Origin: Clostridiales bacterium CCNA10
Lineage (GTDB): Bacteria; Bacillota; Clostridia; Oscillospirales; Oscillospiraceae
Assembly: GCA_003573975.1 (NCBI GenBank)
Contig: AP018533.1
Span: 1,054,001 to 1,118,000 of the forward strand
Length of the DNA: 64,000 bases
Direction of reading: 5' to 3'
In this document: positions 1 through 43,825 of the stretch, piece after piece
Layout: each line of letters opens with the position of its first letter
Position numbering within the stretch: position 1 is the stretch's first letter
Made by a program: the position numbers and the translations under genes
Notes under the pieces: generated by a model
The model's input: the letters and a program-made list of their open reading frames with translations, nothing else
What the model was told of the DNA's origin: nothing
The model's database searches: none

Positions 1-27
1 GGGGTTCAAGTCCGTCCGCCAGCTCCA
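1..27 (+). tRNA. tRNA 3' end (partial, specificity unknown)
   Basis: The window opens inside a tRNA: a T-loop TTCAAGT, the acceptor 3' strand CGCCAGC, a discriminator T and an encoded CCA. The anticodon is outside the window. It shows that the tRNA cluster extends further left. Confidence 0.75.
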
Positions 28-38
28 CAATGAATGAA

Positions 39-669
39 CCTTGATAAATCAATATCTGAATCATGCTTATTATTAACTCAGTGAACAAAGCGTGTCAGCG
101 CTCTGAGACGCACAGTAATTTCCGTTTGGTTGAATAGGGATACCTGTTCGATTGCGCGGCTATGGTATAGTGATATACTGTAGGGAGGCGGAAACCACCA
201 ACAAAAATGTGTGTTGCCAAGAGTTGTCGCTGCAAAATGCACGGAACTTTCGGGCGTAACAATAGACGCTCCCAGTGGGAGAATAAGCCTAAGGGGTTAT
301 GGCGTGGCAACCATAATGACAGAGGTAGGCCAACAATACGCTCCGTCTTGAAGCAGAAGAAATTCTGCTATAACGAAAGTCGCCGGTTAAAGTAGCCGTA
401 TGACGGGTTTGAAGATGATCTTTTCTATATCAAATATGGATTTTGTAAAAGAAAATTTCTGAAAGAACGGTGAAATTTGCGGGTAAGCATTCCCGCACAG
501 GTTTATGTACGCAATATGGCTTAGCCTGTTGCGATACTGGGGTAAGAAGTTAGGGGTCGCTCCCCGAAGCTCAGACTTATCTTCCTGGTGGCAGAATATT
601 GTAAGAAGACAATGGAGGTAGGGTGAAGACCCAGTGATAGGTATGATTGAGCTATTGATTTTTTCAAGG
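39..669 (+). ncRNA. Large structured non-coding RNA (ROOL/GOLLD-like candidate)
   Basis: About 630 nt with no convincing gene. The two ends form a long closing helix: 39-64 pairs with 643-669 at about 23 positions, with two mismatches and one small internal loop. Inside are several local hairpins: 269-273/277-281 (loop AGT), 297-302/311-316, 353-358/363-368 (GAAA loop), 478-483/492-497, 553-556/562-565, 598-602/609-613 and 621-624/629-632. It starts 11 nt after a tRNA and sits beside a phage tRNA cluster. ROOL and GOLLD RNAs are known large structured RNAs of phages often found next to tRNA genes, and ROOL is close to this size. Assignment to either family is inference; the fold is visible. 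A 62-codon ORF (207-395) runs through the hairpins and is unlikely to be real. Confidence 0.7.
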
Positions 670-703: not shown

Positions 704-1516
704 ATGAAGATCAGTATCAGAGAGAAAGACATTGGTATGATTAAGGATATCGATGTATCATGCAAGGATGGCGTGATTGTTCTCAACTTTGATTGCGCCA
801 ATGGTGGGGTGCCTATGGTAAATAGTAGGCCGATTATCCCAGTTCCAATGGCGTATCCGCTGAAGGATCTTAACCATCTTACATGGAGTGAGATTGAGGC
901 GATTGGTGCTGCGGGGAAGGCTCGTGAGACATTTGCGCTTGGTGCCACAAAGAAAGACCATATGAAAAACGGCTATGATGCGGAATGGAAAATCATTGGA
1001 TTTGACCATGACGATCTGGCAGACGGGAGCGGCAAGGCACCGATTTCGTGGGATATGGTTAGGGCTTACAAAGATGAGTGGGCTATGAATGACGAGGCCA
1101 CAAATGCAGGTGGCTGGGATCAGTGCAAGGCAAGAAAGCGGATGGATGGAGAACTGTTGTCTCTTTGTTCTGATGAGCTACAAGCTATTGTAAAGCCTGT
1201 TATCAAGTTGACGAGTGCAGGCAGTTGCAGTAAGGATATTGTCAAGAGTATCTGTAAGCTGTGGCTGAAGAGCGAAAAGGAACTGTTTGGCCGTTGTGTT
1301 TACTCTGCACCAGGGGAGGGACACTGGTATGAGTATTATCGTCAGGAGGATGTTCCGTATTTTGCACTTGACGAAAATGGAGACCGTGTGTGTCAGTGGC
1401 TCCGCTCCGCCAGTTACAACGGTTACAACGGTTTCTGCCGTGTCGGCACGGATGGCTCGGCCACCGCTAGCGATGCTTACTGGTCGTGTGCGTTGCTGCC
1501 CGGCTTTAGTTGCTAA
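704..1516 (+). CDS. Remote DGR target protein, C-type-lectin-like variable C-terminus
   Basis: A 270-aa protein with ATG at 704, preceded by the purine-rich GGGAGAG (689-695). The N-terminal two thirds is not recognised. The C-terminus is a DUF6273/C-type-lectin-like fold ending WLRSASYNGYNGFCRVGTDG and then WSCALLPGFSC, which is nearly the same as the end of the large tail-region target at 39346. Its last 112 bases (1396-1507) match the DGR template repeat except at template adenines, so this is a diversified ligand-binding domain although it lies about 41 kb from the reverse transcriptase. It lies just upstream of the tRNA cluster, away from the tail genes. It may be a second receptor-binding or surface protein; the role of the N-terminus is open. 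Confidence 0.85.
   Translation: MKISIREKDIGMIKDIDVSCKDGVIVLNFDCANGGVPMVNSRPIIPVPMAYPLKDLNHLTWSEIEAIGAAGKARETFALGATKKDHMKNGYDAEWKIIGFDHDDLADGSGKAPISWDMVRAYKDEWAMNDEATNAGGWDQCKARKRMDGELLSLCSDELQAIVKPVIKLTSAGSCSKDIVKSICKLWLKSEKELFGRCVYSAPGEGHWYEYYRQEDVPYFALDENGDRVCQWLRSASYNGYNGFCRVGTDGSATASDAYWSCALLPGFSC
1396..1507 (+). repeat. DGR variable repeat VR1
   Basis: Homologous to the template repeat at 42325. Codon-by-codon comparison finds 18 substituted bases, all at positions where the template has A (for example AAT to GGT, CGT or GCT; AAC to TAC or GGC). Non-adenine positions are identical from GTGGCTCCGCTCCGCC through TTGCTGCCCGG. Confidence 0.95.
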
Positions 1517-1561: not shown

Positions 1562-1637
1562 GGGGCTGTAGCTCAGCTGGGAGAGCACCTGCCTTGCAAG
1601 CAGGGGGTCGTGGGTTCAACTCCCATCAGTTCCACCA
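1562..1637 (+). tRNA. tRNA-Ala (TGC)
   Basis: Full cloverleaf with acceptor GGGGCTG/CAGTTCC, anticodon loop CTTGCAA and encoded CCA. Start of the main tRNA cluster, just after the VR1 hairpin. Confidence 0.95.
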
Positions 1638-1749
1638 GTAATCTGTGTTGGTTATGTTGACGCTTGAGTGGTTCAGTTCATTACTTGACTGCTATCCCAG
1701 TCAAAAACCTATCGGCCATGGACGAGGTTCTTCGGACGCACAGTAATTT

Positions 1750-1825
1750 CGAGACATAGCTCAGTTGGTAGAGCGCACGACTGATAATCGTGAGGTCGAA
1801 AGTTCAATTCTTTCTGTCTCGACCA
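1750..1825 (+). tRNA. tRNA-Ile (GAT)
   Basis: Acceptor CGAGACA/TGTCTCG, anticodon loop CTGATAA, T-arm GAAAG/CTTTC, encoded CCA. The spacer before it ends in GACGCACAGTAATTTC (1735-1750), a 16-base string also present at 107-122 inside the large RNA. Confidence 0.95.
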
Positions 1826-1836
1826 CAATTTAATAT

Positions 1837-2241
1837 GGGGCAGTAATGGGTTCGACGGGGTTTTGAGAGTGCAAAACACGCAGGAATGATACCGCCTAAA
1901 GGGTCGAAACAAAATTAAACGACGATACTGTTGTAATGATTCACCCTGCTATTGCCGCTTTCGTGGCAAATCGGGTTGCTGCTTGAACTAATTTAAGCAT
2001 CCAAAACGGCGCACTTGGCCTGGTAAGCGCTTGAGGGTAAAAGAAGAGGTCATTTGGTTTCCTTGTTCCCCTTACACAAACAAGGTGGTGGAGGCGATAC
2101 CGATCCGGTACGCCCTGGGTAAGATAAGCCGACATCGTGGCACCCGCCGACAAGCAAACGCTTAAAAGCCGGCTATTGCGTAAGAATGTTTTGCTCATGT
2201 AGGAATTTCGGACGCGGGTTCGATTCCCGCCTGCTCCACCA
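1837..2241 (+). ncRNA. ssrA: tmRNA (ssrA), phage-encoded
   Basis: Begins GGGGCAGTAATGGGTTCGAC, the standard tmRNA 5' signature, and ends with the tRNA-like half CGGGTTCGATTCCCG then CTGCTCCACCA. GGGGCAG pairs with CTGCTCC to close the acceptor. A plausible tag frame runs from about 1916 to TGA near 1988 and ends FVANRVAA. It contains NDD near its start and the two final alanines expected of a degradation tag. At about 23 residues the tag would be longer than most, and the exact resume codon is not certain. It lies inside the phage tRNA cluster, so it could supply ribosome rescue during infection. Confidence 0.93.
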
Positions 2242-2245
2242 TATA

Positions 2246-2322
2246 TCTGGGTGTACGCCAATTGGTAGACGGCGTGATTTGGGGTCACGAGGCTGTGGGT
2301 TCGAGTCCCACCACTCAGACCA
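2246..2322 (+). tRNA. tRNA-Pro (TGG)
   Basis: Acceptor TCTGGGT/ACTCAGA, anticodon loop TTTGGGG, encoded CCA; five bases after the tmRNA. Confidence 0.93.
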
Positions 2323-2325
2323 TTT

Positions 2326-2386
2326 AAGGCGCTAACAGCAACAATTCTTGTATTCTTGCCATTTTTAAGAAGATAAGATGTGCCTT
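2326..2386 (+). ncRNA. Stem-closed ACAGCAA module, copy A
   Basis: A 7-bp stem (AAGGCGC 2326-2332 with GTGCCTT 2380-2386, one G-T pair) encloses 47 nt beginning TA-ACAGCAA. One of six modules with the same layout but different, still complementary, stem sequences in this tRNA cluster. Function unknown. Confidence 0.6.
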
Positions 2387-2393
2387 GGAAGTT

Positions 2394-2492
2394 GAGACGC
2401 TTACAGCAACATACTCAATCAAATAAATACAAAAGATGATTTGGATTTATCTTCAATAAGTGAAAGCTTAGATTTTTTGAATGATGCGTCTC
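2394..2492 (+). ncRNA. Stem-closed ACAGCAA module, copy B
   Basis: GAGACGC (2394-2400) pairs perfectly with GCGTCTC (2486-2492). ACAGCAA sits at 2403-2409, followed by an AT-rich interior. The longest of the six copies at 99 nt; it starts seven bases after copy A ends. Confidence 0.6.
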
Positions 2493-2504
2493 GCGGTGTG
2501 ATAT

Positions 2505-2580
2505 TGGTTCGTAGCTCAATTGGTAGAGCATCCGGCTGTTAACCGGAGGGTTGGCGGTTCGAGTCCCGCCGTGCCAGCCA
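2505..2580 (+). tRNA. tRNA-Asn (GTT)
   Basis: Anticodon loop CTGTTAA, acceptor TGGTTCG/CGTGCCA with one mismatch, G73, encoded CCA. The T-stem pairs imperfectly unless one base is bulged. Confidence 0.88.
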
Positions 2581-2622
2581 GACTAAAAAGCAGGATAGAG
2601 AGCTTTTATAGCGTGATCGCAG

Positions 2623-2684
2623 AAGGACACTCACAGCAACTTTACTACACATAATTTGGGCTTATGAATGTATTAAAGTGTCTT
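2623..2684 (+). ncRNA. Stem-closed ACAGCAA module, copy C
   Basis: GACACT (2626-2631) pairs with AGTGTC (2677-2682), extended outward by AAG/CTT with one bulged G. ACAGCAA sits at 2633-2639. Same design as the other five modules. Confidence 0.6.
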
Positions 2685-2717
2685 GGCGAACTGCTATTTT
2701 TGGAACTATCCATATAT

Positions 2718-2793
2718 TGCGGGGTAGAGAAGCGGCTATCTCGTCAGCCTCATGAGCTGAAGATCACAGGTTCGAGTCCTGTCCCCGCAACCA
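2718..2793 (+). tRNA. tRNA with CAT anticodon (Met, or Ile2)
   Basis: Acceptor TGCGGGG/CCCCGCA, anticodon loop CTCATGA, encoded CCA. The paired first base argues against an initiator tRNA. A lysidine-modified Ile2 cannot be excluded. Confidence 0.9.
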
Positions 2794-2949
2794 TGCCCGC
2801 CCAACGAATAGAGCAGAGACTATAAACGGAATTGGGAATTGAAACCTTTGCATCTGGCAGCAATGAAGTTCAGCAGGTTTTTGATGAAACCGCCGCATTT
2901 GGATAGCGAATATCTGAAGGTATGGCCGATACCTTGAATCGGTCAGTAT

Positions 2950-3025
2950 GCTCGATTAGCTCAGCAGGGAGAGCGCGTCCCTTACAAGGATGAGGTCGGC
3001 GGTTCGATCCCGTCATCGAGCACCA
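2950..3025 (+). tRNA. tRNA-Val (TAC)
   Basis: Acceptor GCTCGAT/ATCGAGC, anticodon loop CTTACAA, encoded CCA. The gap before it (2794-2949) holds no ORF, only a small GGTAT/ATACC hairpin at about 2921-2935. Confidence 0.94.
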
Positions 3026-3028
3026 CAT

Positions 3029-3103
3029 GTAGGTATAGTGTTAGCGGTAGCATATCGGTCTTCCAAACCGAGGGGGCGGGTTCAAATCCCGCTATCTACT
3101 CCA
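3029..3103 (+). tRNA. tRNA-Gly (TCC)
   Basis: Acceptor GTAGGTA/TATCTAC, anticodon loop CTTCCAA, encoded CCA; three bases after tRNA-Val. Confidence 0.94.
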
Positions 3104-3325
3104 TTAGGCGCACTTGTGACTATCTACTTGACAGGTTGTTGCCAAAGATGCTTTGATCGCGGGCATCTATAAAAATAATAGTCGAGCCTTTGGGGAGTTG
3201 GTGAATCCCTCGGTAGCCCACAGCCCGTTAGTGATGTAGAGCCAAGTGGGATATACCCTGGCATTTCTATTGGACGCTTTAGAAGTGGCTGCGGGCGACG
3301 GCCTAACGCTATGCCAGGTTTATAT
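3104..3325 (+). other. Intergenic gap with a large hairpin, no gene seen
   Basis: 222 nt without an ORF of note. CCTGGCAT (3257-3264) pairs perfectly with ATGCCAGG (3311-3318) around a 46-nt interior, so part of the gap may be another structured RNA. It lacks the ACAGCAA core of the neighbouring modules. Confidence 0.4.
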
Positions 3326-3410
3326 GCGGGTATGGCGGAATTGGCAGACGCGCCAGACTTAGGATCTGGTGGGCTATCCTGTGCAGGTTCGACCCCTGTT
3401 ACCCGTACCA
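3326..3410 (+). tRNA. tRNA-Leu (TAG)
   Basis: Class II tRNA with a long variable arm, anticodon loop CTTAGGA, acceptor GCGGGTA/TACCCGT, encoded CCA. Confidence 0.94.
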
Positions 3411-3413
3411 TAA

Positions 3414-3479
3414 AGAGCACATACAGCAATTTTATATATGGAATCAACTTTTAACTGATCAAACCAAACAAGGTGCTCT
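3414..3479 (+). ncRNA. Stem-closed ACAGCAA module, copy D
   Basis: AGAGCAC (3414-3420) pairs perfectly with GTGCTCT (3473-3479); ACAGCAA at 3423-3429. It lies between two tRNA-Leu genes. Confidence 0.62.
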
Positions 3480-3489
3480 GTGAAAATTA

Positions 3490-3575
<86 letters not shown>

Positions 3576-3580
3576 ACTAT

Positions 3581-3654
3581 GATACCGTAGCCAGGTGGTA
3601 AGGCACTGGGCTGCAACCCCAGGATCATAGGTTCGAGTCCTATCGGTATCTCCA
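3581..3654 (+). tRNA. tRNA-Cys (GCA)
   Basis: Acceptor GATACCG/CGGTATC, anticodon loop CTGCAAC, encoded CCA. Confidence 0.94.
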
Positions 3655-3657
3655 TAT

Positions 3658-3734
3658 GCGCCAGTAGCTCAATTGGATAGAGCATAGGACTTCTAATCCT
3701 AAGGCTGGGGGTTCGATTCCTCTCTGGCGTACCA
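3658..3734 (+). tRNA. tRNA-Arg (TCT)
   Basis: Acceptor GCGCCAG/CTGGCGT, anticodon loop CTTCTAA, encoded CCA. Reads AGA, a common codon in AT-leaning phage genes. Confidence 0.94.
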
Positions 3735-3859
3735 TCCGTGTGGTAGTAAAAGTACGATCAATAAAATAACTACGCTCGTTTGTTTCTGCCATAAAGGGCT
3801 GGATGGTATGGCCTGGTCAGCGAGAGATCCTGTTTGGAGAATCGGGAGTGCAGGCACGG

Positions 3860-3887
3860 AAAAATAAAACCCCGCCTTTCGGCGGGG
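3860..3887 (-). terminator. Intrinsic terminator of the minus-strand mini unit
   Basis: Stem CCCCGCC/GGCGGGG (3870-3876 with 3881-3887) followed, reading on the minus strand, by a T-rich run (complement of 3860-3869). It lies just past the stop of the small minus-strand ORF. Confidence 0.85.
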
Positions 3888-3895
3888 CAAGCGGA

Positions 3896-4096
3896 TCAAA
3901 GTTTAATGCCAAGTTTTTCAGCCATTTCTTCTGGAGTCATGTTGGCAGAAGCTTCTTCGATAATCTTTTTCATCTTAGCGGGGCGAAGAAGTTCTTGCTT
4001 CTTTGCTTCAAGAGCTGCAATCTTTGCGTCGATTTCTGCAATTCTGTCTTCCACAGTGCGACGAGTGCGTTTTGCTTTTTCTTCAGCCTAATACAT
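3896..4096 (-). pseudogene. Small coiled-coil ORF with amber stop at codon 3
   Basis: On the minus strand, ATG at 4096 has GGAGGC (4098-4103) one base upstream and reads ATG TAT TAG. The same frame then continues for 63 codons of ordinary protein, rich in Ala, Glu and Lys (KAKRTRRTVEDRIAEIDAKI, ending EEMAEKLGIKL), to TGA at 3896. It is flanked by a good promoter and a terminator, so the unit is complete apart from the amber codon. No CTA-anticodon suppressor tRNA is visible in the cluster. Either the gene is freshly broken, TAG is read through, or translation starts weakly downstream (GTG at codon 15). The only clear minus-strand gene in the phage part. Confidence 0.6.
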
Positions 4097-4122
4097 TGCC
4101 TCCAATCGATTTGGTTATTACA

Positions 4123-4151
4123 TTTATACCATACTTTGATACAGAATGCAA
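4123..4151 (-). promoter_or_regulatory. Sigma-A-type promoter, minus strand
   Basis: Reading on the minus strand: TTGCAT (-35; 4146-4151), a 17-nt spacer, TATAAA (-10; 4123-4128). It is correctly placed upstream of the small minus-strand ORF. Confidence 0.7.
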
Positions 4152-4169
4152 CATCCAATAAGAAAATAT

Positions 4170-4244
4170 TGGGGTATCGCCAAGTGGTAAGGCACGGGAC
4201 TTTGACTCCCGTATTCGCTGGTTCGAGTCCAGCTACCCCAGCCA
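4170..4244 (+). tRNA. tRNA-Gln (TTG)
   Basis: Acceptor TGGGGTA/TACCCCA, anticodon loop CTTTGAC, G73, encoded CCA. Confidence 0.94.
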
Positions 4245-4306
4245 ACTATCATAAGACGCTGGTTCTGTTTTGTGTAAAATAGATGTCACACCAAGTTAAA
4301 ACTATA

Positions 4307-4387
4307 AATGCTCCCATCCTCTAATCGGAATAGGAGGCTGGCCTCTCAAGCCGGAGTTTGCGGGTTCAATCCCCGCCGGCATCACCA
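4307..4387 (+). tRNA. tRNA-Glu (CTC), weak acceptor ends
   Basis: Anticodon arm CTGGC/GCCGG with loop CTCTCAA, T-arm GCGGG/CCCGC, encoded CCA. The acceptor stem pairs only in its middle (positions 2-6); base pairs 1-72 and 7-66 are mismatched and the D-stem is 3 bp. The Glu call rests on the anticodon. Confidence 0.72.
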
Positions 4388-4406
4388 TGAAGAAAGGGAG
4401 ATATTT

Positions 4407-4649
4407 GTGCCAAGAAAATATTTGACAGAAAATGTAGGAAGTAAACAGAGAATAGTACGAAAAATTCCGTCCTCAGAAAACGGATTGGGCGTACATTGTA
4501 CGACAAAATGCGGACAAGAATTTCAGATTAGCCAGAACAACGAAAAGAGAAAACATACGCTATGGAAAATTGTTCCTGGTGGATTTGAGAAGATTGCCAC
4601 AGGGGATTCACCGTATGATCTATATGATAAAATCCCTTGGGACAAGTAA
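4407..4649 (+). CDS. Hypothetical 80-aa protein
   Basis: GTG start at 4407 chosen because AAAGGGAG (4393-4400) sits six bases upstream; an ATG further left lies inside the tRNA. The product begins MPRKYLTENVGSKQRIVRKI and ends DLYDKIPWDK. It has two cysteines (VHCTTKCGQEF) but no recognised domain. It sits between tRNA-Glu and tRNA-Leu, like other small cargo ORFs in phage tRNA clusters. Confidence 0.6.
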   Translation: MPRKYLTENVGSKQRIVRKIPSSENGLGVHCTTKCGQEFQISQNNEKRKHTLWKIVPGGFEKIATGDSPYDLYDKIPWDK

Positions 4650-4654
4650 TGAAT

Positions 4655-4740
4655 GCCGTTATGGTGGAATGGCAGACACGCCAGCTTGAGGGGCTGGTGG
4701 AAGTAATCTCGTATGGGTTCAAGTCCCATTGACGGCACCA
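4655..4740 (+). tRNA. tRNA-Leu (GAG)
   Basis: Class II tRNA, acceptor GCCGTTA/TGACGGC, anticodon loop TTGAGGG, encoded CCA. The third Leu tRNA in the cluster. Confidence 0.94.
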
Positions 4741-4744
4741 GTAT

Positions 4745-4821
4745 GGCTCCATAGTTCAGAAGAGTAGAACGCCGGCCTGTCACGCCGGAGGTCACGGGTT
4801 CAAGTCCCGTTGGAGTCGCCA
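4745..4821 (+). tRNA. tRNA-Asp (GTC)
   Basis: Acceptor GGCTCCA/TGGAGTC, anticodon loop CTGTCAC, G73, encoded CCA. Confidence 0.94.
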
Positions 4822-4825
4822 ATAT

Positions 4826-4899
4826 AGGGGTTTGGTGCAATGGTAGCATGACGGTCTCCAAAACCGTTGATGAGGGTTCGAGTCCTTCAGCCCCTGCCA
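4826..4899 (+). tRNA. tRNA-Trp (CCA)
   Basis: Acceptor AGGGGTT/AGCCCCT, anticodon loop CTCCAAA, G73, encoded CCA. Confidence 0.94.
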
Positions 4900-4902
4900 A
4901 TA

Positions 4903-4987
4903 AAGACACATACAGCAATATCACATATTTTAAGTATTCTTTCAAACCATCTCCTTTCTTTCTACCTCCCTTTCTCTATTGTGTCTT
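4903..4987 (+). ncRNA. Stem-closed ACAGCAA module, copy E
   Basis: AAGACACA (4903-4910) pairs perfectly with TGTGTCTT (4980-4987), 8 bp; ACAGCAA at 4912-4918. The interior is pyrimidine-rich. Confidence 0.62.
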
Positions 4988-5002
4988 GTTATGGCTTTCC
5001 AT

Positions 5003-5095
5003 GCCGGTATAGCTCAATTGGCAGAGCAGCGGATTTATGCCCCGTAGCGCCAGATAAGCGGCAGGTTGCAGGTTCGACTCCTACTACCGGCACCA
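5003..5095 (+). tRNA. Atypical tRNA, probable TAT anticodon, long variable arm
   Basis: Acceptor GCCGGTA/TACCGGC, a normal D-arm and encoded CCA are clear. The anticodon arm is GCGGA-TTTATGC-CCCGT (4 good pairs), giving TAT (Ile, AUA codons). The variable region is then 22 nt (AGCGCCAGATAAGCGGC plus AGGTT), which is class II length and not expected for Ile. An inserted segment or a mis-set anticodon is possible. Confidence 0.6.
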
Positions 5096-5191
5096 TGCGC
5101 CACGGTTAATGGCTAAAATTCTACCGGCAAATAAACAATAGAAGCCCCGCATAATGAAAGCGATTTAATAGGGTGTTCGGCGCTAACACAT

Positions 5192-5278
5192 AGGGGAGCG
5201 CCAGAGTCGGAGAGCTGGGGCAGTCTGTAAAACTGTTGCTTTCGAGCTGAGTGGGTTCGACTCCCACCTCCCCTACCA
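5192..5278 (+). tRNA. tRNA-Tyr (GTA)
   Basis: Class II tRNA, acceptor AGGGGAG/CTCCCCT, anticodon loop CTGTAAA, long variable arm, encoded CCA. Confidence 0.94.
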
Positions 5279-5316
5279 ATTGAGATTATGGAGGATTAGG
5301 TATAGAAAGATATTGT

Positions 5317-5691
5317 GTGAATTGTGGGTGTAAAATTTGCAGAGAAAACACATCTGGATATTGTATCGATTGTCTTAGAGCCAAAAGAAAAAGAGAAAAG
5401 ATAGAAAGATGGCTTAAAATAGGAGATGCAAACATAGGTGTATCAACAACATTAAGAGGGTGTATCAGACAATATATTCTGGACGATCAGAATGGTAGAT
5501 GTGCTATATGTGGTATAGATAATTTTTGGAATGGAGAGCGTTTGAATTTTATTTTAGACCATATAGACGGGGACGCATCAAATAATTTTAGAAATAATTT
5601 GAGACTGATTTGCCCTAATTGCGATAGTCAGCTTCCTACATATAAATCCAGAAATAAGAATTCTGCGAGGGTGTATCGTAGAGCTTCTTAA
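5317..5691 (+). CDS. HNH endonuclease in the tRNA cluster
   Basis: About 124 aa. An N-terminal Cys-rich part (CGCKIC, then CIDC) and an HNH core: CAICG, LDHIDGDASNNFRNNLRLIC and CPNCDSQ, with the typical DHIDGD...NN...LICPNC spacing of phage HNH nucleases. It cuts DNA and may promote its own spread or that of the tRNA cluster. The GTG at 5317 is used; the frame is open back to 5284, and GGAGGA at 5290-5295 would suit a rare ATA start at 5302 that adds one more Cys, so the start is uncertain. It sits between tRNA-Tyr and tRNA-Ser. Confidence 0.85.
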   Translation: MNCGCKICRENTSGYCIDCLRAKRKREKIERWLKIGDANIGVSTTLRGCIRQYILDDQNGRCAICGIDNFWNGERLNFILDHIDGDASNNFRNNLRLICPNCDSQLPTYKSRNKNSARVYRRAS

Positions 5692-5696
5692 CATAC

Positions 5697-5787
5697 GGCG
5701 GAATACCGAAGTGGTCATAACGGCGCAGTCTTGAAAACTGATGTGAGCTAACTACTCCCGTGGGTTCGAGTCCTACTTCCGCCGCCA
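5697..5787 (+). tRNA. tRNA-Ser (TGA)
   Basis: Class II tRNA, acceptor GGCGGAA/TTCCGCC, anticodon loop CTTGAAA, G73, encoded CCA. Confidence 0.94.
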
Positions 5788-5819
5788 TACTCCATATACC
5801 ATGTTGTATATTGGAGCCA

Positions 5820-5848
5820 GGGAAATCGTATGGCGATTTCCCTCTTAT
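5820..5848 (+). terminator. Strong hairpin, terminator-like
   Basis: A perfect 9-bp stem GGGAAATCG/CGATTTCCC (5820-5828 with 5834-5842) followed by TCTTATAT. The U-tract is weak, so it may instead be an RNA-processing hairpin between tRNA-Ser and tRNA-Phe. Confidence 0.45.
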
Positions 5849-5850
5849 AT

Positions 5851-5927
5851 GGAACGATAGCTTACGAGGTCTGAGCGGCGGTTTGAAAAACCGCAGGATG
5901 ATGGATCGTTACCATCTCGTTCCACCA
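5851..5927 (+). tRNA. tRNA-Phe (GAA)
   Basis: Acceptor GGAACGA/TCGTTCC, anticodon loop TTGAAAA, encoded CCA. The T-loop reads ATCGTTA instead of TTC..., a mild oddity. Confidence 0.9.
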
Positions 5928-5935
5928 TAATAAAA

Positions 5936-5998
5936 AAGACATGAACAGCAATTTTATCTATGGCTACATAAAAGCACATTGCCGTGTGCGCATGTCTT
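5936..5998 (+). ncRNA. Stem-closed ACAGCAA module, copy F
   Basis: AAGACATG (5936-5943) pairs perfectly with CATGTCTT (5991-5998), 8 bp; ACAGCAA at 5945-5951. Compared with copy E the stem changes at both strands together, so pairing is kept. Confidence 0.62.
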
Positions 5999-6068
5999 GT
6001 GCCTAAAGGGAGTCACCAACTGGCGTTAAATAAGTGGGGCAACCGTGCAAACCGGGTAAACTTAATAT

Positions 6069-6144
6069 GCGCTCATAACTCAGTTGGTAGAGTAGCTGCC
6101 TTTTAAGCAGCGAGTCGTGGGTTCGAGTCCCGCTGAGCGCACCA
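6069..6144 (+). tRNA. tRNA-Lys (TTT)
   Basis: Acceptor GCGCTCA/TGAGCGC, anticodon loop CTTTTAA, encoded CCA. Last tRNA of the cluster. Confidence 0.95.
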
Positions 6145-6149
6145 TTCTA

Positions 6150-6178
6150 CGACACACTTTTTGTGTGTCGCTTTTTTA
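6150..6178 (+). terminator. Intrinsic terminator ending the tRNA cluster
   Basis: CGACACAC/GTGTGTCG (6150-6157 with 6163-6170), then CTTTTTTA. It separates the tRNA operon from the terminase operon. Confidence 0.9.
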
Positions 6179-6202: not shown

Positions 6203-7168
6203 GTGGCAAATGATTTGAAAAAGGGAGCCGCAGCAAAAACGCAGCGCCCTGAACGAATGAATTTGGAGAACGACGACAAATACCCGTATCATTGCAGCGC
6301 ATGTGGTAAGGGATATATGCGACAGAAGGATAATTTTAATGTCACCCCGTCTCCTTATTATGCAGGTAATGGCGGTTATCTTACGATTTGCAGAAGGTGC
6401 CTGGATAAATCCTTTGAATACTATCGTGATGAGGTGTTTGACGGAGACCAGGATAAAGCGATGGAGCTTTTGTGCGCGACGATTAACACCTGCTTTGATG
6501 AAGGAGCATGGGCAAATGCCAAAAAGCACCCGTCTCCAAACAGAAGTAAGGTAAGCCAATATTTTTCCAAGTTGAATTTGGCGCAGACAAAGGGAGCGTC
6601 TTATGCAGATACAATTCTTTACCGCAGAGCAAATAAAGTCGAAAACGCAGAGACAATTCAAGCGGTAAAAGATAATCCCAAAATTATGACTCCGATTGAG
6701 ACCATCCAATTGTTCGGTCTTGGATTCAGCGACCAGGATTATGAAACGCTACAATATGAGTACGATGATTGGGTAAAGAAATACGGTGATCCTGAGGATA
6801 AGCGTCAGGATGAGCTATATAAGAGCCTTTGCTATTTGAAATTACAGTTGCAGAAGTCCGTGCAGAATGGAGACTCTGGAATTGGAGCATTGGCAAAGAC
6901 CTACAAAGAATACATCAATGCGGCGACGACTGAGCTGGAGGATCGCCGGCAGAAGAAGGAAGAGTCCGTCCAGTTGAATCCTCTTGGCCTATGGGCAAGG
7001 GATATTGAAAAGTATACCCCGGCGGAATTCTACAAGGACAAAAAGTTGTTTAAGGACTTTGATGATATAGGAAGTTATTGTTCTCGCTTTATTTTTAGAC
7101 CTCTGAAAAACCTCCTGACCGGATCAAAAGAGCTTGATAAGGAATACAAGCTTTCCCAGGAGGAATGA
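6203..7168 (+). CDS. terS: Terminase small subunit (zinc-ribbon type)
   Basis: 321 aa from GTG 6203, chosen because AAAGGAGG (6188-6195) lies seven bases upstream; earlier in-frame starts fall in the terminator. The N-terminus has a Cys4 zinc-binding site, CSACGKGY (about residue 30) and CRRCLDKS (about 65), seen in a group of Firmicutes phage small terminases. The middle is helical and charged. It should bind the phage packaging site and hand DNA to the large subunit, which follows with an overlap of the ORF ends. The small-subunit call rests on the zinc pattern and on position, as the family is poorly conserved. Confidence 0.75.
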   Translation: MANDLKKGAAAKTQRPERMNLENDDKYPYHCSACGKGYMRQKDNFNVTPSPYYAGNGGYLTICRRCLDKSFEYYRDEVFDGDQDKAMELLCATINTCFDEGAWANAKKHPSPNRSKVSQYFSKLNLAQTKGASYADTILYRRANKVENAETIQAVKDNPKIMTPIETIQLFGLGFSDQDYETLQYEYDDWVKKYGDPEDKRQDELYKSLCYLKLQLQKSVQNGDSGIGALAKTYKEYINAATTELEDRRQKKEESVQLNPLGLWARDIEKYTPAEFYKDKKLFKDFDDIGSYCSRFIFRPLKNLLTGSKELDKEYKLSQEE

Positions 7169-7172
7169 TGTG

Positions 7173-8969
7173 ATGAACTATGATGTTTTAATGGATGAGC
7201 GGCAAAAGCATTTGCACGAACATTTCCCGTCTACGCACTATTTGCACAAAGTAGAAAATGTTCAGCGTGTACTTTTGTGGCTCACTTTTTATAGGAGAAA
7301 CCCATCGAGGTTTGTAGAGCACTACTTTGGGATTGTTCTTCATCTATATCAGCATATCATTCTTTATCTGATGGAGTATTTTCCAAGCTTCTGCATTGTA
7401 GCCGCCCGTTCCGCAGCAAAGTCTTTCCTTATTGCCGTGTTCGCCTGTAAAGAGGCAATCCTACGGCCTGGGGCAAGGATCGTTGTGGCATCGGCTACCA
7501 AGAAACAGGCGAGACTCATCGTGTCAGAAAAGATAAAAAAGGAGCTTTTGCCAAAGTCGCCGCTGCTTGAAGCGGAGATAGACAGTTTTAAGGACAACCA
7601 GAATGAGATTGAGGTTATTTTTAAGAACGGAAGTTCTATTGTAGTTGTTGCCGCTAATGAGAACGCTCGTGGTTATCGTGCGACCGTTATGATCTACGAA
7701 GAGTTCCGTATGATTGCGAAGAATATCATTGACAGTGTTCTTTCTCCGTTCCTATTTGTTCGGCAAGCAGACTATTTGAAGCAAGAAGAGTATGCCGGGA
7801 TGCAGGAAGAGCCTAAGGAAGTGTATATCAGCTCCGCATGGTATCAGAACCACTGGATGTGGAATCTAATTCAGACATTTACAAAGGATATGCTGTCTGG
7901 TGGTACATCGTGTGTTATTGCGATGGACTACAGCATTGCTTTGAAACACAACATTAAAACCAGGAACTTCCTAATTAAAGAGCGAAAGAAACTCGATCCG
8001 ATGTCCTGGGCAATTGAGTACGAGAACCAGATGATTGCGGAAAATGCCAGGTCTTTCTTTAACTATGATCAGTTGAACCGAAACAGAAGACTAAAGCGGG
8101 CGTTTTATCCGCGCAGAAATGATGAAGCTCTTTTGAAGCAAAAGAACAAATACGATATTCCAAAACAGGTGGGGGAAATCAGAGTATTGTCTTGTGATAT
8201 TGCAATGGAGGGCGGAAACGATACGGATAACTCTATCTTCTCCTGCATCAGACTTTTGCCAGAAAGCCAGGAGCATAAGGTGATGGACACAGCCGGCGAG
8301 CATATTACGGTTAAAAGAGGATATCGCCGTCAGGTTGTCTATATGGAGTCTATTCATGGAGGGGAGACCACTAAGCAGGCTATCCGCATCAAACAATTGT
8401 ATACGGATTTTAACGCCGACTATTGCGTTCTCGACGGACGTAACGCCGGTATTTCCGTTTATGACATGCTCGCAAAGGTTTTGTTTGATGAAGAGAGAAA
8501 CATTGAATACAAACCATGGAAATGTATGAACGACGAAAAGGTTGCGAACAGAATTCAGATTGCCGGCGCTGAAGAGAATGTATATGTCATTAAGGCACAA
8601 CTCGAAACGAACAGCAATATTGCTGAGTCCATGCGTAATGCTCTGAATTCTGGGATGATCGACTTGCTGATCAGCAATACTGAGGCGGTTGATGAGATTT
8701 CTAATTTTATCCCAGAATATGCGACTGCTGATGTTGAAGCGCAGCTATTCTTTGAAAGACCCTATATAGAAACGGTTGCTTTAATCAATGAGATGATCAA
8801 TCTTGAATATGAGCGAGGCGATCAGACTGGGTTGATTAAAATTATGAACAACAATGACCGTAAGGACAGATACACCTCTGTTTCTTACGGTAATTATTTT
8901 GCCCAAATGCTTGAACATGATTTGTTGTCCGATACGGCGGAGTACGAATATGTTCCACTATTTAACTGA
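7173..8969 (+). CDS. terL: Terminase large subunit
   Basis: 598 aa, the DNA-packaging motor and nuclease. ATG 7173 follows AGGAGG (7158-7163). The ATPase half has a variant Walker A near residues 77-84 (VAARSAAK-S) and Walker B MIYEEF (173-178). The nuclease half shows acidic clusters expected of an RNase H fold: SCDIAMEGGNDTDNS and VLDGRNAG, then a later EAVDEIS. It threads phage DNA into proheads through the portal protein encoded just downstream. Confidence 0.92.
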   Translation: MNYDVLMDERQKHLHEHFPSTHYLHKVENVQRVLLWLTFYRRNPSRFVEHYFGIVLHLYQHIILYLMEYFPSFCIVAARSAAKSFLIAVFACKEAILRPGARIVVASATKKQARLIVSEKIKKELLPKSPLLEAEIDSFKDNQNEIEVIFKNGSSIVVVAANENARGYRATVMIYEEFRMIAKNIIDSVLSPFLFVRQADYLKQEEYAGMQEEPKEVYISSAWYQNHWMWNLIQTFTKDMLSGGTSCVIAMDYSIALKHNIKTRNFLIKERKKLDPMSWAIEYENQMIAENARSFFNYDQLNRNRRLKRAFYPRRNDEALLKQKNKYDIPKQVGEIRVLSCDIAMEGGNDTDNSIFSCIRLLPESQEHKVMDTAGEHITVKRGYRRQVVYMESIHGGETTKQAIRIKQLYTDFNADYCVLDGRNAGISVYDMLAKVLFDEERNIEYKPWKCMNDEKVANRIQIAGAEENVYVIKAQLETNSNIAESMRNALNSGMIDLLISNTEAVDEISNFIPEYATADVEAQLFFERPYIETVALINEMINLEYERGDQTGLIKIMNNNDRKDRYTSVSYGNYFAQMLEHDLLSDTAEYEYVPLFN

Positions 8970-33607: not shown

Positions 33608-34009
33608 ATGAACACTACATACTTTCTGAATCAAGTGATGGGAAATTTGTTTAAGACAAAGGAAACTCCTGCACTTCCAAGCGAGTATTACATTGGCCTA
33701 AGTTCTACCGCTCCAAATATCAGTGGCGGTAATGTCACAGAGCCTCTTTCAAACTCTGGATATAAAAGAGTGAAGCTTGAGAATTTGAGTGAGCCGGCAG
33801 ATGGTGTAATTACAAATGAGCAGGCCATTTCTTTTGATGAGTCAACTGCAAACTGGGGAACAATGTCCCACTTTGTTATTTATGATGCGCTGGAGGCCGG
33901 AAATCTACTTATGTATGACACCCTATCCACCCCTCGTAATGTTGAGGCCGCAACTATCGTAACGATTAAGGCAAACAGCCTGACTTTGACTTTGAGCAAC
34001 CCAGCTTAA
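33608..34009 (+). CDS. Tail-tip / fibre-base protein
   Basis: 133 aa from ATG 33608, seven bases after AAGGAGG. The sequence LPSEYYIGLSSTAPN, then NWGTMSHFVIYDALEAGNLL and MYDTLSTPRNVEA, is a recurrent pattern in baseplate proteins of Firmicutes phages that pair with fibres. Exact role unknown. It sits between BppU-like and fibre genes. Confidence 0.55.
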   Translation: MNTTYFLNQVMGNLFKTKETPALPSEYYIGLSSTAPNISGGNVTEPLSNSGYKRVKLENLSEPADGVITNEQAISFDESTANWGTMSHFVIYDALEAGNLLMYDTLSTPRNVEAATIVTIKANSLTLTLSNPA

Positions 34010-39345: not shown

Positions 39346-41355
39346 ATGCCTATTATTTCTAACTTTCCATCTGGTGGCGGAAGTGGCGGCGGTGGACTTC
39401 AACTGGCCGCTGTCTCTGGCATCGTCACTAAGGTTTCGCATGGGAAGGTATATGTAAAGTGGACTGATCCTGAAGACCTGGTTGTTGCTGAATCTACCCT
39501 TGCTGAATGGGCGGGCACTCTGCTTGTTCGTAAGGCCGGCTCTATGCCTGTCAGCAGACGTGACGGCACGGTAGTCGTGGACAGCAAGGTACGCAATCAG
39601 TATCAGAACCAGTATTTTTGCGATAGCGGTTTGACCGATGGCACGGTCTACTACTACAAATTCTTCCCATATACAACGACAAATACTTATACCGAGAACG
39701 AGGATTGTGAGTTTACTGCGACTCCTAACGCCCCAACAATGGGCAATGTGTCCGGTATGAGCGCAACCCCTGCTGGTAATGGAAAGCTTGCAATCAAGTG
39801 GACTGATCCAGCAGCTACCATCGTAGACGATGGGCTTACCCTGGCAACCTGGGAGAAGACCGTTGTTGTGGTCAAGGAGGGCGGCTACGCCACTTCTCCA
39901 GACGATGAGGATGCGGCATATAGTTACACCAGTACCACACGGAACGCCCATGCAAGCGCTCCGCTGACCGTGACAGGGCTTACAAACGGCACGACCTATT
40001 ATGTGTCTTTCTTCCCGGTATCTACGGATGGTGTGGTAAATGTAAACGCAAGTAATAGAATCACTGGAGAAGCTAACCGCATGGTGATCGCTACGGTTCC
40101 TTCTCAAAGTGAATCTCTTACTTATAACGGGAGTGCCCAGACTCCTACATTTAGCAACTATGACACAAACAAGATGACTTTGAGCGTCACTGGGCAAACC
40201 AATGCCGGCACTTATAACGCCTCCTTTACTCCAAAGGATGACTATATGTGGAGTGACGAGACTACGGCTGCAAAGACTGTCAACTGGACGATCAATAAGG
40301 CCGCAGGCAGCTTGAGTGTGAGTCCGCAAACGGTCACATTGGACATGGAACACCCAACTGCTCAGATTACCGTTACACGGCCTGGTAATGGCGCGATTAC
40401 CGCAGTGTCAAATAACACTGGTATCGTTACGGTCAGCGTAAGCGGGAATGTTATCACCGTGAACAATGTCAATCAGACAAGTGGTGACACCACTATTACG
40501 GTTAAGGTGGCCGCTGGTACAAACTATACTGCCCCTGCAAATAAGACTGTTACGGTCAACGCAGAGTTCGTCAGTGATATTCTGAACGAGAACTCCTGGG
40601 CGGTTATCAAGGCTGTTTCTGATAGTGGGCAGGGAGATAATTACTGGGATGTTGGTGATACAAAAACCATCGTGATCAACGGTAAGGTTGGTGCCACAAC
40701 ATTTAGCAATTTGTCCATCGATGCTTTCATTATTGGTTTCCATCACAATGCGTCAAGAGAGGGTAACAATCGTATTCACTTCCAGCTCGGCAAGATTGGC
40801 GGAAAGATGGTTGGCCTGGTTGATAGCAGATATAACAACAGCTATTCAAACGGAAACTTCTGTATGAACACCAGTAGCACAAACTCTGGTGGTTGGAACA
40901 ACAGCTATATGCGTAGAACCATTTTGGGCAATACCAATACTCCGACAAATCCGTTGGCAAATAGCCTCATGGCGGCTCTGCCAGCCGATTTGAGAGCGGT
41001 TATGAAGTCCGTAACCAAGTATACGGACAATACTGCTAACGGTGGCGGAAACCAGAGTTCTTATGTGACAGCGACTACGGATTATCTATGGCTACTTGCA
41101 GAGTTCGAGGTGCAAGGCGCTCGTACCTATGCCAACTCTTACGAACAGAACTATCAGGCGCAATACCAGTATTACAAGTCTGGTAACAGCAAGGTTGCGT
41201 ATAGACACAACGCTACCGGCAGCACGGCTTACTGGTGGCTCCGCTCCGCCCTTTGCAACAGTAGCAACCGTTTCTGCCGTGTCGGCACGGATGGCTCGGC
41301 CAACACTTACTATGCTTGCTGGTCGTATGCGTTGCTGCCCGGCTTTGCCGCCTAA
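39346..41355 (+). CDS. Main DGR target: receptor-binding tail protein
   Basis: 669 aa, ATG 39346 after AAGGAGG. In order: a Gly-rich opening; two fibronectin-III-like domains (VYVKWTDPEDLVV... and LAIKWTDPAATIV...); an MBG/Ig-like domain (SLTYNGSAQTPTFSNYDTNK); a BIG2-like domain; and a DUF6273/C-type-lectin domain from about 420 with the variable end WWLRSALCNSSNRFCRVGTD...CWSYALLPGFAA. The last 120 bases (41226-41346) are the variable repeat. This architecture fits a virion-surface ligand binder whose tip is diversified to follow changing host receptors. Confidence 0.92.
   Translation: MPIISNFPSGGGSGGGGLQLAAVSGIVTKVSHGKVYVKWTDPEDLVVAESTLAEWAGTLLVRKAGSMPVSRRDGTVVVDSKVRNQYQNQYFCDSGLTDGTVYYYKFFPYTTTNTYTENEDCEFTATPNAPTMGNVSGMSATPAGNGKLAIKWTDPAATIVDDGLTLATWEKTVVVVKEGGYATSPDDEDAAYSYTSTTRNAHASAPLTVTGLTNGTTYYVSFFPVSTDGVVNVNASNRITGEANRMVIATVPSQSESLTYNGSAQTPTFSNYDTNKMTLSVTGQTNAGTYNASFTPKDDYMWSDETTAAKTVNWTINKAAGSLSVSPQTVTLDMEHPTAQITVTRPGNGAITAVSNNTGIVTVSVSGNVITVNNVNQTSGDTTITVKVAAGTNYTAPANKTVTVNAEFVSDILNENSWAVIKAVSDSGQGDNYWDVGDTKTIVINGKVGATTFSNLSIDAFIIGFHHNASREGNNRIHFQLGKIGGKMVGLVDSRYNNSYSNGNFCMNTSSTNSGGWNNSYMRRTILGNTNTPTNPLANSLMAALPADLRAVMKSVTKYTDNTANGGGNQSSYVTATTDYLWLLAEFEVQGARTYANSYEQNYQAQYQYYKSGNSKVAYRHNATGSTAYWWLRSALCNSSNRFCRVGTDGSANTYYACWSYALLPGFAA
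41226..41346 (+). repeat. DGR variable repeat VR2
   Basis: Aligned with the template repeat, all 17 substituted bases are at template adenines (AAT to CTT, CGT, ACT or TAT; AAC to GGC, TAC or TGC). All other bases match from GGCTTACTGGTGG to TTGCTGCCCGG. Confidence 0.96.
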
Positions 41356-42324: not shown

Positions 42325-42445
42325 GGCTTACTGGTGGCTCCGCTCCGCCAATTACAACAATAACAACAATTTCTGCAATGTCAACACGGATGGCTCGGCC
42401 AACAATAACAATGCTAACTGGTCGTATGCGTTGCTGCCCGGATTT
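42325..42445 (+). repeat. DGR template repeat (TR)
   Basis: Starts GGCTTACTGGTGG and ends TTGCTGCCCGGATTT. Read in the target frame it encodes an Asn-rich version of the variable region (NYNNNNNF, then NNNNANWSYALLPGF) because variable sites are AAC/AAT. One constant difference, GGA in TR against GGC in both VRs, lies at the IMH end and may mark IMH versus IMH*. It lies 59 bp after the Avd-like gene and 220 bp before the RT. Confidence 0.96.
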
Positions 42446-42664: not shown

Positions 42665-43825
42665 ATGACAAGCGAAGAGCGCCACGAGGCGCGTTACCGT
42701 CGCAGAAAACGAAAGCGACAAATGAAACGATGGATGCGAAGCCAAGCTGTTGGGACACTTGAAGAAGTATTTAATTACCGCGATATGTTTTATTGGGGTA
42801 AGAAGTGCTGCAACGGTGTAAGGTGGAAGCAATCAACTCAAAATTTTGAGCTTCACTTGCTTTCTGGAACAGCAAAAAGAAGACGGCTTATTTTAGAGGG
42901 AAAGTGGAAGCCAAGAAAATGCGCTCATTTTACACTACATGAGCGTGGTAAGATCAGACCAATCGACGCACCGCATATTGAAGACCGGCAAATCCATAAG
43001 CTGGAGAATAATAAGGTTTTGTCCCCGCTGTATGCCCCAAGTATGATTTATGATAATGGAGCAAGTCAAAAGGGCAAAGGATTACACTGGCATTTCAAAC
43101 GGCTGAAGAAACAGCTTTCTTGGCATTACCGCAGGTATGGTAGGGAAGGGGCTGTATTCTTACTCGATCTCAAAGGGTTCTTCCCAAATGCCAACCGCAG
43201 CCTAATCTATCAACGGCATAAGAAGTTTATCATGGATGATAGGTTGAGAGCGCTTGCGGATCTGATCGTTACGGAATCGCCGTGTACTGCTCCTGGTAGG
43301 GGAATGCCGCTTGGAGTTGAGCCAAGTCAGCAGGAGATGGTATTTCTACCCAGTGACATTGATAACTTCATCAAATGCCAGCTTGGGATTCATTGTGTCG
43401 GCCACTATATGGACGATTACTACATCATCCTACAGGATGTCGAAGAGCTTAAAAGAATTGCCAGAATTATTATTAAGCGCTTTGAGATGGCCGGCATTAT
43501 GGTCAATAAGAGGAAGTGTAAAATCATTCCTCTGACAAAGCCGTTTAGGTTCTGTAAGGCGAGATTTACTTTGACCGAAACTGGTAAAATCAAAGTCAAC
43601 GGATGCAGAGATGGTGTGAAGAGGGCGCGTAGAAAATTGAAGTTGTTCCATCGTCAATTCCTTGAAGGAAAGAGAACGCTTCAAGAAATCGATCAGTTTA
43701 TGGAGTCTCAAACTGCGTATTATCGCACCTTTGATGACCATGGGAGACTCCTACGGTTGAGAAGAATGCACTACGCTATTTTCAACAAATACCGTGAAGC
43801 TGCTCCGCTGAAGATGGCGGGATAA
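42665..43825 (+). CDS. DGR reverse transcriptase
   Basis: 386 aa, ATG 42665. The N-terminus is very basic (RYRRRKRKRQMKRWMRSQA). RT motifs: LLDLKGFFPN (166-175, catalytic Asp), GVEPSQ (217-222, the GxxxSQ form typical of DGR enzymes in place of the usual QG), YMDDYY (248-253, catalytic Asp pair), and a thumb-like C-terminus rich in Lys/Arg. It copies the TR RNA with errors at adenines; the cDNA then replaces VR in the two targets. Intact by motif inspection. Confidence 0.96.
   Translation: MTSEERHEARYRRRKRKRQMKRWMRSQAVGTLEEVFNYRDMFYWGKKCCNGVRWKQSTQNFELHLLSGTAKRRRLILEGKWKPRKCAHFTLHERGKIRPIDAPHIEDRQIHKLENNKVLSPLYAPSMIYDNGASQKGKGLHWHFKRLKKQLSWHYRRYGREGAVFLLDLKGFFPNANRSLIYQRHKKFIMDDRLRALADLIVTESPCTAPGRGMPLGVEPSQQEMVFLPSDIDNFIKCQLGIHCVGHYMDDYYIILQDVEELKRIARIIIKRFEMAGIMVNKRKCKIIPLTKPFRFCKARFTLTETGKIKVNGCRDGVKRARRKLKLFHRQFLEGKRTLQEIDQFMESQTAYYRTFDDHGRLLRLRRMHYAIFNKYREAAPLKMAG

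Follow-up and report, generated by a model that had tools for sequence, protein, structure and literature searches.

A boxA-like element in the covarying closing helix of a prophage ROOL RNA, and its likeness to host rRNA operons

The stretch of DNA analyzed here, 64,000 nucleotides in full and hereafter called the window, carries near its left end a large structured RNA (35-669) that belongs to an already known family, ROOL, and the gene that encodes it likely has, to judge from sequence, the layout of an rRNA operon. The family itself being known, the new part would appear to be a boxA-like element in the 5' strand of the RNA. We are moderately confident that this boxA-bearing ROOL gene is arranged like host rRNA, and that its RNA is likely transcribed with Nus factors and likely cut at its closing helix, and is predicted to form a cage. 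The broader proposition, that ROOL genes imitate rRNA operons, with boxA and helix taken from the host lineage, the Nus and folding complex enlisted to help the RNA's two ends meet ahead of cage closure, and output at the level of rRNA, seems to us to have a little better than an even chance of being right.

The family assignment is supported by an Infernal search, the check that an earlier note on this DNA had proposed. The Rfam model RF03087 matches window 53-651 (+) with 403.5 bits against a cut-off of 99.1 (E 3.7e-93) and over its full length, model positions 1-574 of 574, which is the top score among all ROOL matches scored in the analysis. The earlier note had described a single large RNA domain and had wavered between ROOL, GOLLD and a new family; the domain proves to be a full-length ROOL closed by a covarying helix, and a GOLLD identity is rejected, since RF02032 has no match in the window at its gathering score and none in 1-760 at E up to 1. 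(The same GOLLD model gave 0 matches in 398 genomes of the phylum, a count uninformative on generality, as the control genomes also gave 0.) The minimum-energy fold of 28-700, at -216.8 kcal/mol, lies well below the mean of 20 shuffles (-177.2, sd 7.6; z -5.2) and includes the same closing stem. The extent first given, 39-669, stands as regards its helix, while the start moves to 35 once the boxA-like element is included; the structure and the family guess were likewise sound, and what they overlooked was this element and the likeness to the leader-trailer helices of host rRNA. That no credible gene lies here was also rightly seen: the 62-codon open reading frame at 207-395 falls inside the ROOL core, relatives carry indels that break its frame (in the alignment of 296-345 these are not multiples of three), and it is rejected as a gene.

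Because the window lies within a 3.56-Mb bacterial contig and encodes a terminase and a phage tail lysozyme, it is read as a prophage; a blastn search of the phage collection for its near relatives gave no match. Like other ROOLs, this one has tRNA genes close by on its prophage, ARAGORN placing tRNA-Thr upstream and a tRNA array downstream, as the earlier note had it. Such RNAs are rare among the host's relatives, being found, with its own genome counted, in 1 of 64 genus genomes, 2 of 300 sampled from the family and 4 of 394 sampled from the order.

Comparisons were made among 72 full-length ROOLs (40 + 21 + 11, the last 11 cut from pattern loci or from one further search), reduced to 50 non-redundant ones by shared 8-mers; the partial ROOLs L062 and L166 were left out, as was L052, the same record as L042. 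Records holding no ROOL numbered 3 of 44, 15 of 23 and 16 of 35 in the three scans. From the 70 pattern loci on genome contigs, 34 were picked by title and scanned, the other 36 being left out; 23 of the 34 hold 24 ROOLs, which after removal of 4 duplicates gave 20 not used before and, with the 50, a set of 70 for boxA. The loci were thinned yet remain related, so the ROOL counts below are not independent. Some records carry two ROOLs: on a 402-kb IMG/VR contig (G375) they lie far apart (6246-6837 and 209967-210580), in L175 they are in tandem with 36 bases between them (6735-7327 and 7364-7932), and L214 and L186 lie about 8 kb apart on the same Atopobiaceae contig.

The 23 pairs earlier proposed between 39-64 and 643-669 are present, and the helix extends inward to 74/633, for a total of 33 pairs, all standard with G-U included, in a base-by-base check. 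These fall into the segments 59-74/633-648, 56-57/650-651, 46-54/653-661 and 39-44/664-669, which are interrupted by mismatches at 58/649 and 55/652 and by a 1x2 loop at 45/662-663. The Rfam stem is the inner 16 pairs, and 17 lie beyond it. When each 5' arm is matched with its own 3' arm and with the 49 foreign ones, the own arm beats them all in 29 of 50 ROOLs, and at most two foreign arms do better in 38, the window (outdone by 2) among these. Outside the Rfam stem the own arms have a median of -14.5 kcal/mol, as opposed to -7.5 for swapped arms; here the own arm comes first in 15 of 50, no more than two foreign arms are better in 27, and the window is outdone by 3. In a 28-position register, at least 22 positions are paired for 27 of 50 own arms (26 positions in the window itself) and for 69 of 2450 swaps, and among 40 passing swaps listed most unite members of the window's clade. 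In those 27 ROOLs, which were selected because they pair, 94.8% of cells are paired in register, a share that drops to 41-45% when the register is shifted by 1-3 bases, and every one of the 28 positions shows at least three standard pair types. Compensatory changes, on which the earlier note had staked the helix, are thus present across the 50 non-redundant ROOLs, and the helix, its outer part included, is maintained by them. Given a full-length ROOL match together with arms that covary across homologues, the pairing is not chance, and the Rfam model ends short of a conserved outer helix.

The boxA-like element lies at the 5' base of this helix. Its score against a matrix built from 12 distinct rRNA sites, with ROOLs excluded, is equalled or exceeded in 0.028% of 7,027 background windows and ranks second on the window's + strand, although it is a moderate match, 14.64 as compared to 16.4-21.8 for the rRNA sites, with 12 of 15 consensus positions. 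With the same rRNA-only matrix, 30 of 70 ROOL 5' zones pass a threshold set at 0.1% of those background windows and 34 of 70 pass at a 1% rate; on the minus strand of ROOL loci, 8 of 7,295 windows pass the 0.1% threshold. In the 30 passing ROOLs a median of 13 of the 15 boxA bases is paired within the helix. Two consensus sequences, a first one of 15 positions and a stricter variant, had been applied as well. A score of at least 12 of 15 on the first is found in 24 of 50 ROOL 5' zones against 1.06% of 4,064 background windows, while 7 of the 50 zones and 0 of 4,064 windows score at least 14; a score of at least 12 on the stricter variant is found in 7 of 50 against 9 of 4,064. Among the 20 ROOLs not used before, 6 reach at least 12 on the first consensus, as do 45 of 2,963 background windows. 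Elsewhere in the window, the top boxA-like score on the + strand, 18.0, is at 33771-33785 among phage structural genes, a place not known to have an RNA role, which counts against the operon-like reading, and the third is the site before tRNA-Leu(CAA) listed in the table; boxA-like sites also lie directly before tmRNA in two other loci, L195 (at 1228, reverse-strand count) and L200 (at 4077). A literature search on ROOL and boxA, in which few subscription papers were covered, found no paper, and an earlier description may exist.

The boxA sequence differs between the phyla compared here. Of eight ROOLs on contigs titled Coriobacteriia, Coriobacteriaceae, Atopobiaceae or Eggerthellaceae, six have TTGAGA (L175 twice, L186, L208, L214 and L244) and two TTGAAA (L241 and L199), and none of the 24 first-set ROOL sites scoring at least 12 has TTGAGA. 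No 16S was found in any of the 12 genomes from which the Coriobacteriia-class ROOLs come. Of six actinobacterial genomes belonging to other classes, three have 16S and took their place; these are Gordonia, Marmoricola and Streptomyces, whose rRNA boxA has TTGAGAA, a match by lineage that supports the operon-like reading. (A separate search for rRNA found 16S in 6 of 12 genomes.)

The same arrangement is seen in the host itself, all three of whose rRNA operons carry boxA, as TGCACCTTGTAAATT in the 16S leader and as TGCACCTTGAAAACT in the 16S-23S spacer. In the one operon of the three from which the pairing layout was taken (L267), the boxA strand of the 16S leader is predicted to pair with the 16S trailer, just ahead of the spacer tRNAs, and that of 23S likewise with its own trailer. 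Judged by eye, these spacer tRNAs resemble Ile(GAT) and Ala(TGC), and genes for tRNA-Ala(TGC) and tRNA-Ile(GAT) come after the ROOL and the target gene in the phage. The ROOL gene, too, has a boxA sequence, albeit a moderate match, and a helix with boxA in its base.

Might this nonetheless be an ordinary ROOL, with a lengthened P1, a likeness to boxA that stems from A/T-rich stems or from descent, no part for Nus factors, transcription together with the tRNAs, and ends trimmed by tRNA enzymes? We consider this unlikely, though it is the alternative to be taken most seriously. Forty of 70 ROOLs fall below the 0.1% threshold, which means that boxA is unnecessary for being a ROOL and which, together with the middling score of the window's own site, slightly reduces our confidence; one ROOL (L169) has no boxA, although the rRNA of its genome (G493) carries one. 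A tRNA lies within 60 nt of a ROOL end in 27 of 50 loci and directly abuts or overlaps the Rfam edge of the RNA in eight (L057, L072, L076, L090, L096, L101, L105 and L158). The eight have weaker helices (median -14.6 vs -36.4 kcal/mol in the others, p 3e-4) and none has boxA, as compared to 24 of the 42 others (p 0.004), and the ends of these RNAs may be made by tRNA enzymes alone. The notion that an abutting tRNA takes the place of a long helix holds only in part, as seven loci (L094, L102-L104, L154, L159 and L160) have a weak helix and no abutting tRNA. Against an ordinary ROOL stand the boxA counts given above, with their same-locus and minus-strand backgrounds, and the position of the boxA-like site at the base of the helix, a layout shared with host rRNA.

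The features on either side of the RNA are in keeping with the operon-like reading that we prefer. Upstream the order is tRNA-Met, promoter and tRNA-Thr; the last ends at window base 27, and the ROOL unit with its boxA-like element begins at 35. Promoter sequences that score at least 11 of 12 and lie no more than 320 bases away occur in 10 of the 16 loci examined, as against 21 of 339 background stretches. They are found in all nine loci of the window's clade (L001, L071, L073, L084, L148, L077, L087, L095 and L167) and in L168; L036 has one of 10 of 12, and L107, L108, L163, L165 and L169 have none of at least 10 of 12 within that distance. In L087 and L095 the promoter lies 72-73 bases before the ROOL, with no upstream tRNA in the available stretch. 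The terminator pattern scan found 10 sites on both strands, with 5.6 expected, the other + strand site being at 3980. From promoter to terminator this would form one transcription unit of about 6 kb. For the L. salivarius ROOL, preliminary reporter data place a promoter 225-450 nt upstream (PMC5643018), a distance that fits a processed precursor. Arms of an inverted repeat bracket the promoter, by eye, in the window's copy (L109 9865-9945) and in L071, L073, L148, L077, L087, L095 and L167; the repeat comprises 17 perfect bases in L077 and is imperfect in the window's copy, and the sequence of its arms varies between phages with their complementarity kept. One might guess that it is the site of a regulator. 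In L073, L087 and L095, short near-identical direct repeats, again by eye, flank the segment of tRNA-Thr and ROOL.

How such a gene would work can be pictured with rRNA as the guide. In E. coli, formation of the complex requires boxA, which suffices by itself, a leader-trailer helix of more than 17 bp is critical for 30S formation, and, in a model partly tested there, boxC is anchored via boxA and NusB until the trailer emerges (PMC10250234). By analogy, a transcript running from the promoter through tRNA-Thr and ROOL, then on through the DGR target gene to the tRNA array, would expose a nascent boxA that recruits NusB-S10 and its partners, and polymerase could thereby cross some 6 kb of mostly untranslated RNA unstopped by Rho. 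As in the published model for 16S rRNA, the complex would keep the 5' strand close to where RNA leaves the polymerase as the approximately 560 bases of the core fold; the emerging 3' strand would then pair with the boxA strand, closing the helix and hiding boxA. The helix would be cut, probably by RNase III, and the flanks trimmed by tRNA enzymes, upon which monomers, as in the solved structures of other ROOLs, are predicted to unite via conserved loop contacts into a cage. The weakest step is the last, in which the cage likely encloses a cargo during infection, tRNA being the best candidate.

The closing of the helix over boxA also bears on a quite different proposal, that an abundant boxA RNA serves as a decoy that sequesters NusB-S10 and lowers host rRNA synthesis during infection. 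A boxA-like site is indeed present, and the L. salivarius ROOL is more abundant than 16S rRNA (PMC5643018), but in the finished RNA boxA is mostly paired within the helix and should be hidden, and we regard a decoy as quite improbable.

As regards assembly, studied ROOL members form hollow RNA cages (PMC12286853), the solved ones being octamers and that of L. salivarius a hexamer (PMC12286853, PMC12191101). The window has the conserved contact of loop and junction (305-308/329-332), which is complete in 37 of 50 ROOLs in 7 sequence types, with a mean of 12.7 and a maximum of 21 in 500 shuffles. In the work of Kretsch, such a contact (B4) joins subunits and loop L18 pairs with itself (PMC12286853); the contact in the window is, by our own mapping, a candidate for bridge B4 and is probably made between subunits, and the candidate L18 sequence TCGCT recurs in the aligned stretch of 31 of 50 ROOLs. 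The window ROOL is thus predicted, by analogy, to assemble into a hollow homo-oligomeric cage. The linker of a solved ROOL is disordered and seems to be located within the cage (PMC12286853), and a tRNA in this linker may therefore be tRNA-like cargo. Two of the 72 full-length ROOLs scanned with ARAGORN have such a tRNA (ROOL positions 355-428), tRNA-Phe(GAA) in L102 (IMG/VR 3300032038_000273) and an odd Tyr or Leu in L103 (IMG/VR 3300021399_000260), both with imperfect acceptor stems; a further scan found no others, and the linker of L104 retains an apparent T arm.

Table. Features of the window and its upstream flank (L109 coordinates where marked; all others are window positions).
Feature	Position	Strand	Basis or remark
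Predicted strong promoter, TTGACA-17-TATAGT	L109 9884-9912		117 to 89 bases before window; TG before second hexamer
tRNA-Thr(TGT), 3' end	1..27	+	ARAGORN; gene L109 9952-10027 begins before window
boxA-like element TGAACCTTGATAAAT	35..49	+	5' base of closing helix; rRNA-derived matrix 14.64
5' arm of closing (leader-trailer-like) helix	39..74	+	33 standard pairs, fold, covariation
ROOL RNA (Rfam model extent)	53..651	+	RF03087, full-length match
Loop TGGC	305..308	+	One side of conserved 4-bp loop contact
Junction GCCA	329..332	+	Other side of 4-bp loop contact
Variable linker	404..455 (approximate bounds)	+	Alignment
Loop TCGCT, candidate L18	557..561	+	Our mapping; pairs with itself in solved ROOLs
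3' arm (trailer strand) of closing helix	633..669	+	33 standard pairs, fold, covariation
DGR target gene (DUF6273)	704..1516	+	PF19789, E 1e-07; variable repeat
Variable repeat of ROOL-side target gene	1396..1507	+	18/18 differences at template A
Remaining tRNA array	1562..6144	+	20 tRNAs and one tmRNA (ARAGORN; tmRNA also Rfam)
Second boxA-like site	3474..3488	+	2 bases before tRNA-Leu(CAA); score 14.16
Terminator-like hairpin and T run	6150..6170	+	After last tRNA; pattern scan
DGR template repeat	42325..42445	+	
DGR reverse transcriptase	42665..43825	+	RVT_1, E 1.2e-12

The earlier note had placed the RNA directly upstream of a DGR target gene, and this holds up, given the adenine-specific differences in the variable repeat (18 of 112 positions differ from the template) and a reverse transcriptase near the template. 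A second target (39346-41355) differs at 17 of 121 positions of its variable repeat, again all template A, and in two relatives that share this gene order the ROOL-side gene, compared with the template adjoining the reverse transcriptase, has 23 of 24 differences at A (L071) and 22 of 22 (L078). The gene starts 35 bases past the last helix base, between ROOL and tRNA-Ala, and it holds that place in 4 of 50 non-redundant loci (L001, L071, L073 and L148), DUF6273 being confirmed in the window, in L075 (of the group of L073) and in L148. In L077, L087 and L095, tRNA-Ala follows the ROOL after 39-40 bases with no target gene between. Of 21 records, 5 carry a reverse transcriptase like that of the window, two of these having the ROOL-side gene and three lacking it; none of the 6 records in the L148 group carries one, though in both cases many records are fragments. 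Since the gene is present in so few loci, with tRNA-Ala in its place in relatives and the reverse transcriptase occurring both with and without it, it is a side insertion. That helix and ROOL are mainly a 5' leader controlling this gene, as its closeness to the helix and its being a real DGR target might suggest, is rejected on the same counts of loci and is very improbable indeed. A literature search on ROOL and diversity-generating elements, in which few subscription papers were covered, found no paper. Between the DGR template and the reverse transcriptase lies an RT-2 RNA (RF03077, 42453-42673), which is beside the reverse transcriptase in all five related loci scanned (L170-L174), directly after the template in L173 and L174, and is probably the spacer RNA of the window's type of DGR.

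A boxA within a covarying helix would provide a concrete route to rRNA-like levels of ROOL and to the origin of its ends. If the operon-like reading is right, rRNA antitermination also serves a class of non-coding RNAs from phages, and the rRNA-folding complex has a natural non-ribosomal substrate.

In comparison with known ROOLs (RF03087; Kretsch 2025, PMC12286853; Cousin 2017, PMC5643018), the window's RNA shares the full-length match, the closing stem, the loop contacts, the variable linker and a prophage site adjoining tRNAs, and differs from the Rfam ROOL in the 17 further pairs of its stem and in the boxA-like element. GOLLD RNA is likewise a large, cage-forming phage RNA near tRNAs (PMC12286853), but it is unlike the window ROOL in sequence and structure. 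A similar use of boxA outside rRNA operons is known for lambdoid nut sites and for the leader of suhB (Baniulyte 2017, PMC5725501); the cases described there regulate protein genes, non-coding RNAs lying outside that survey. The closest parallel is pre-rRNA, which has in common with the ROOL gene a promoter, boxA, an end-joining helix, a large stable RNA and tRNAs (Warner 2023, PMC10250234), the difference being that the RNA enclosed by the ROOL helix is not rRNA. In E. coli pre-rRNA, boxA lies 18-19 nt before boxC and outside the helix (PMC10250234), whereas in the host's own leader-trailer helix (L267) boxA lies within the base of the helix, as it does in ROOL.
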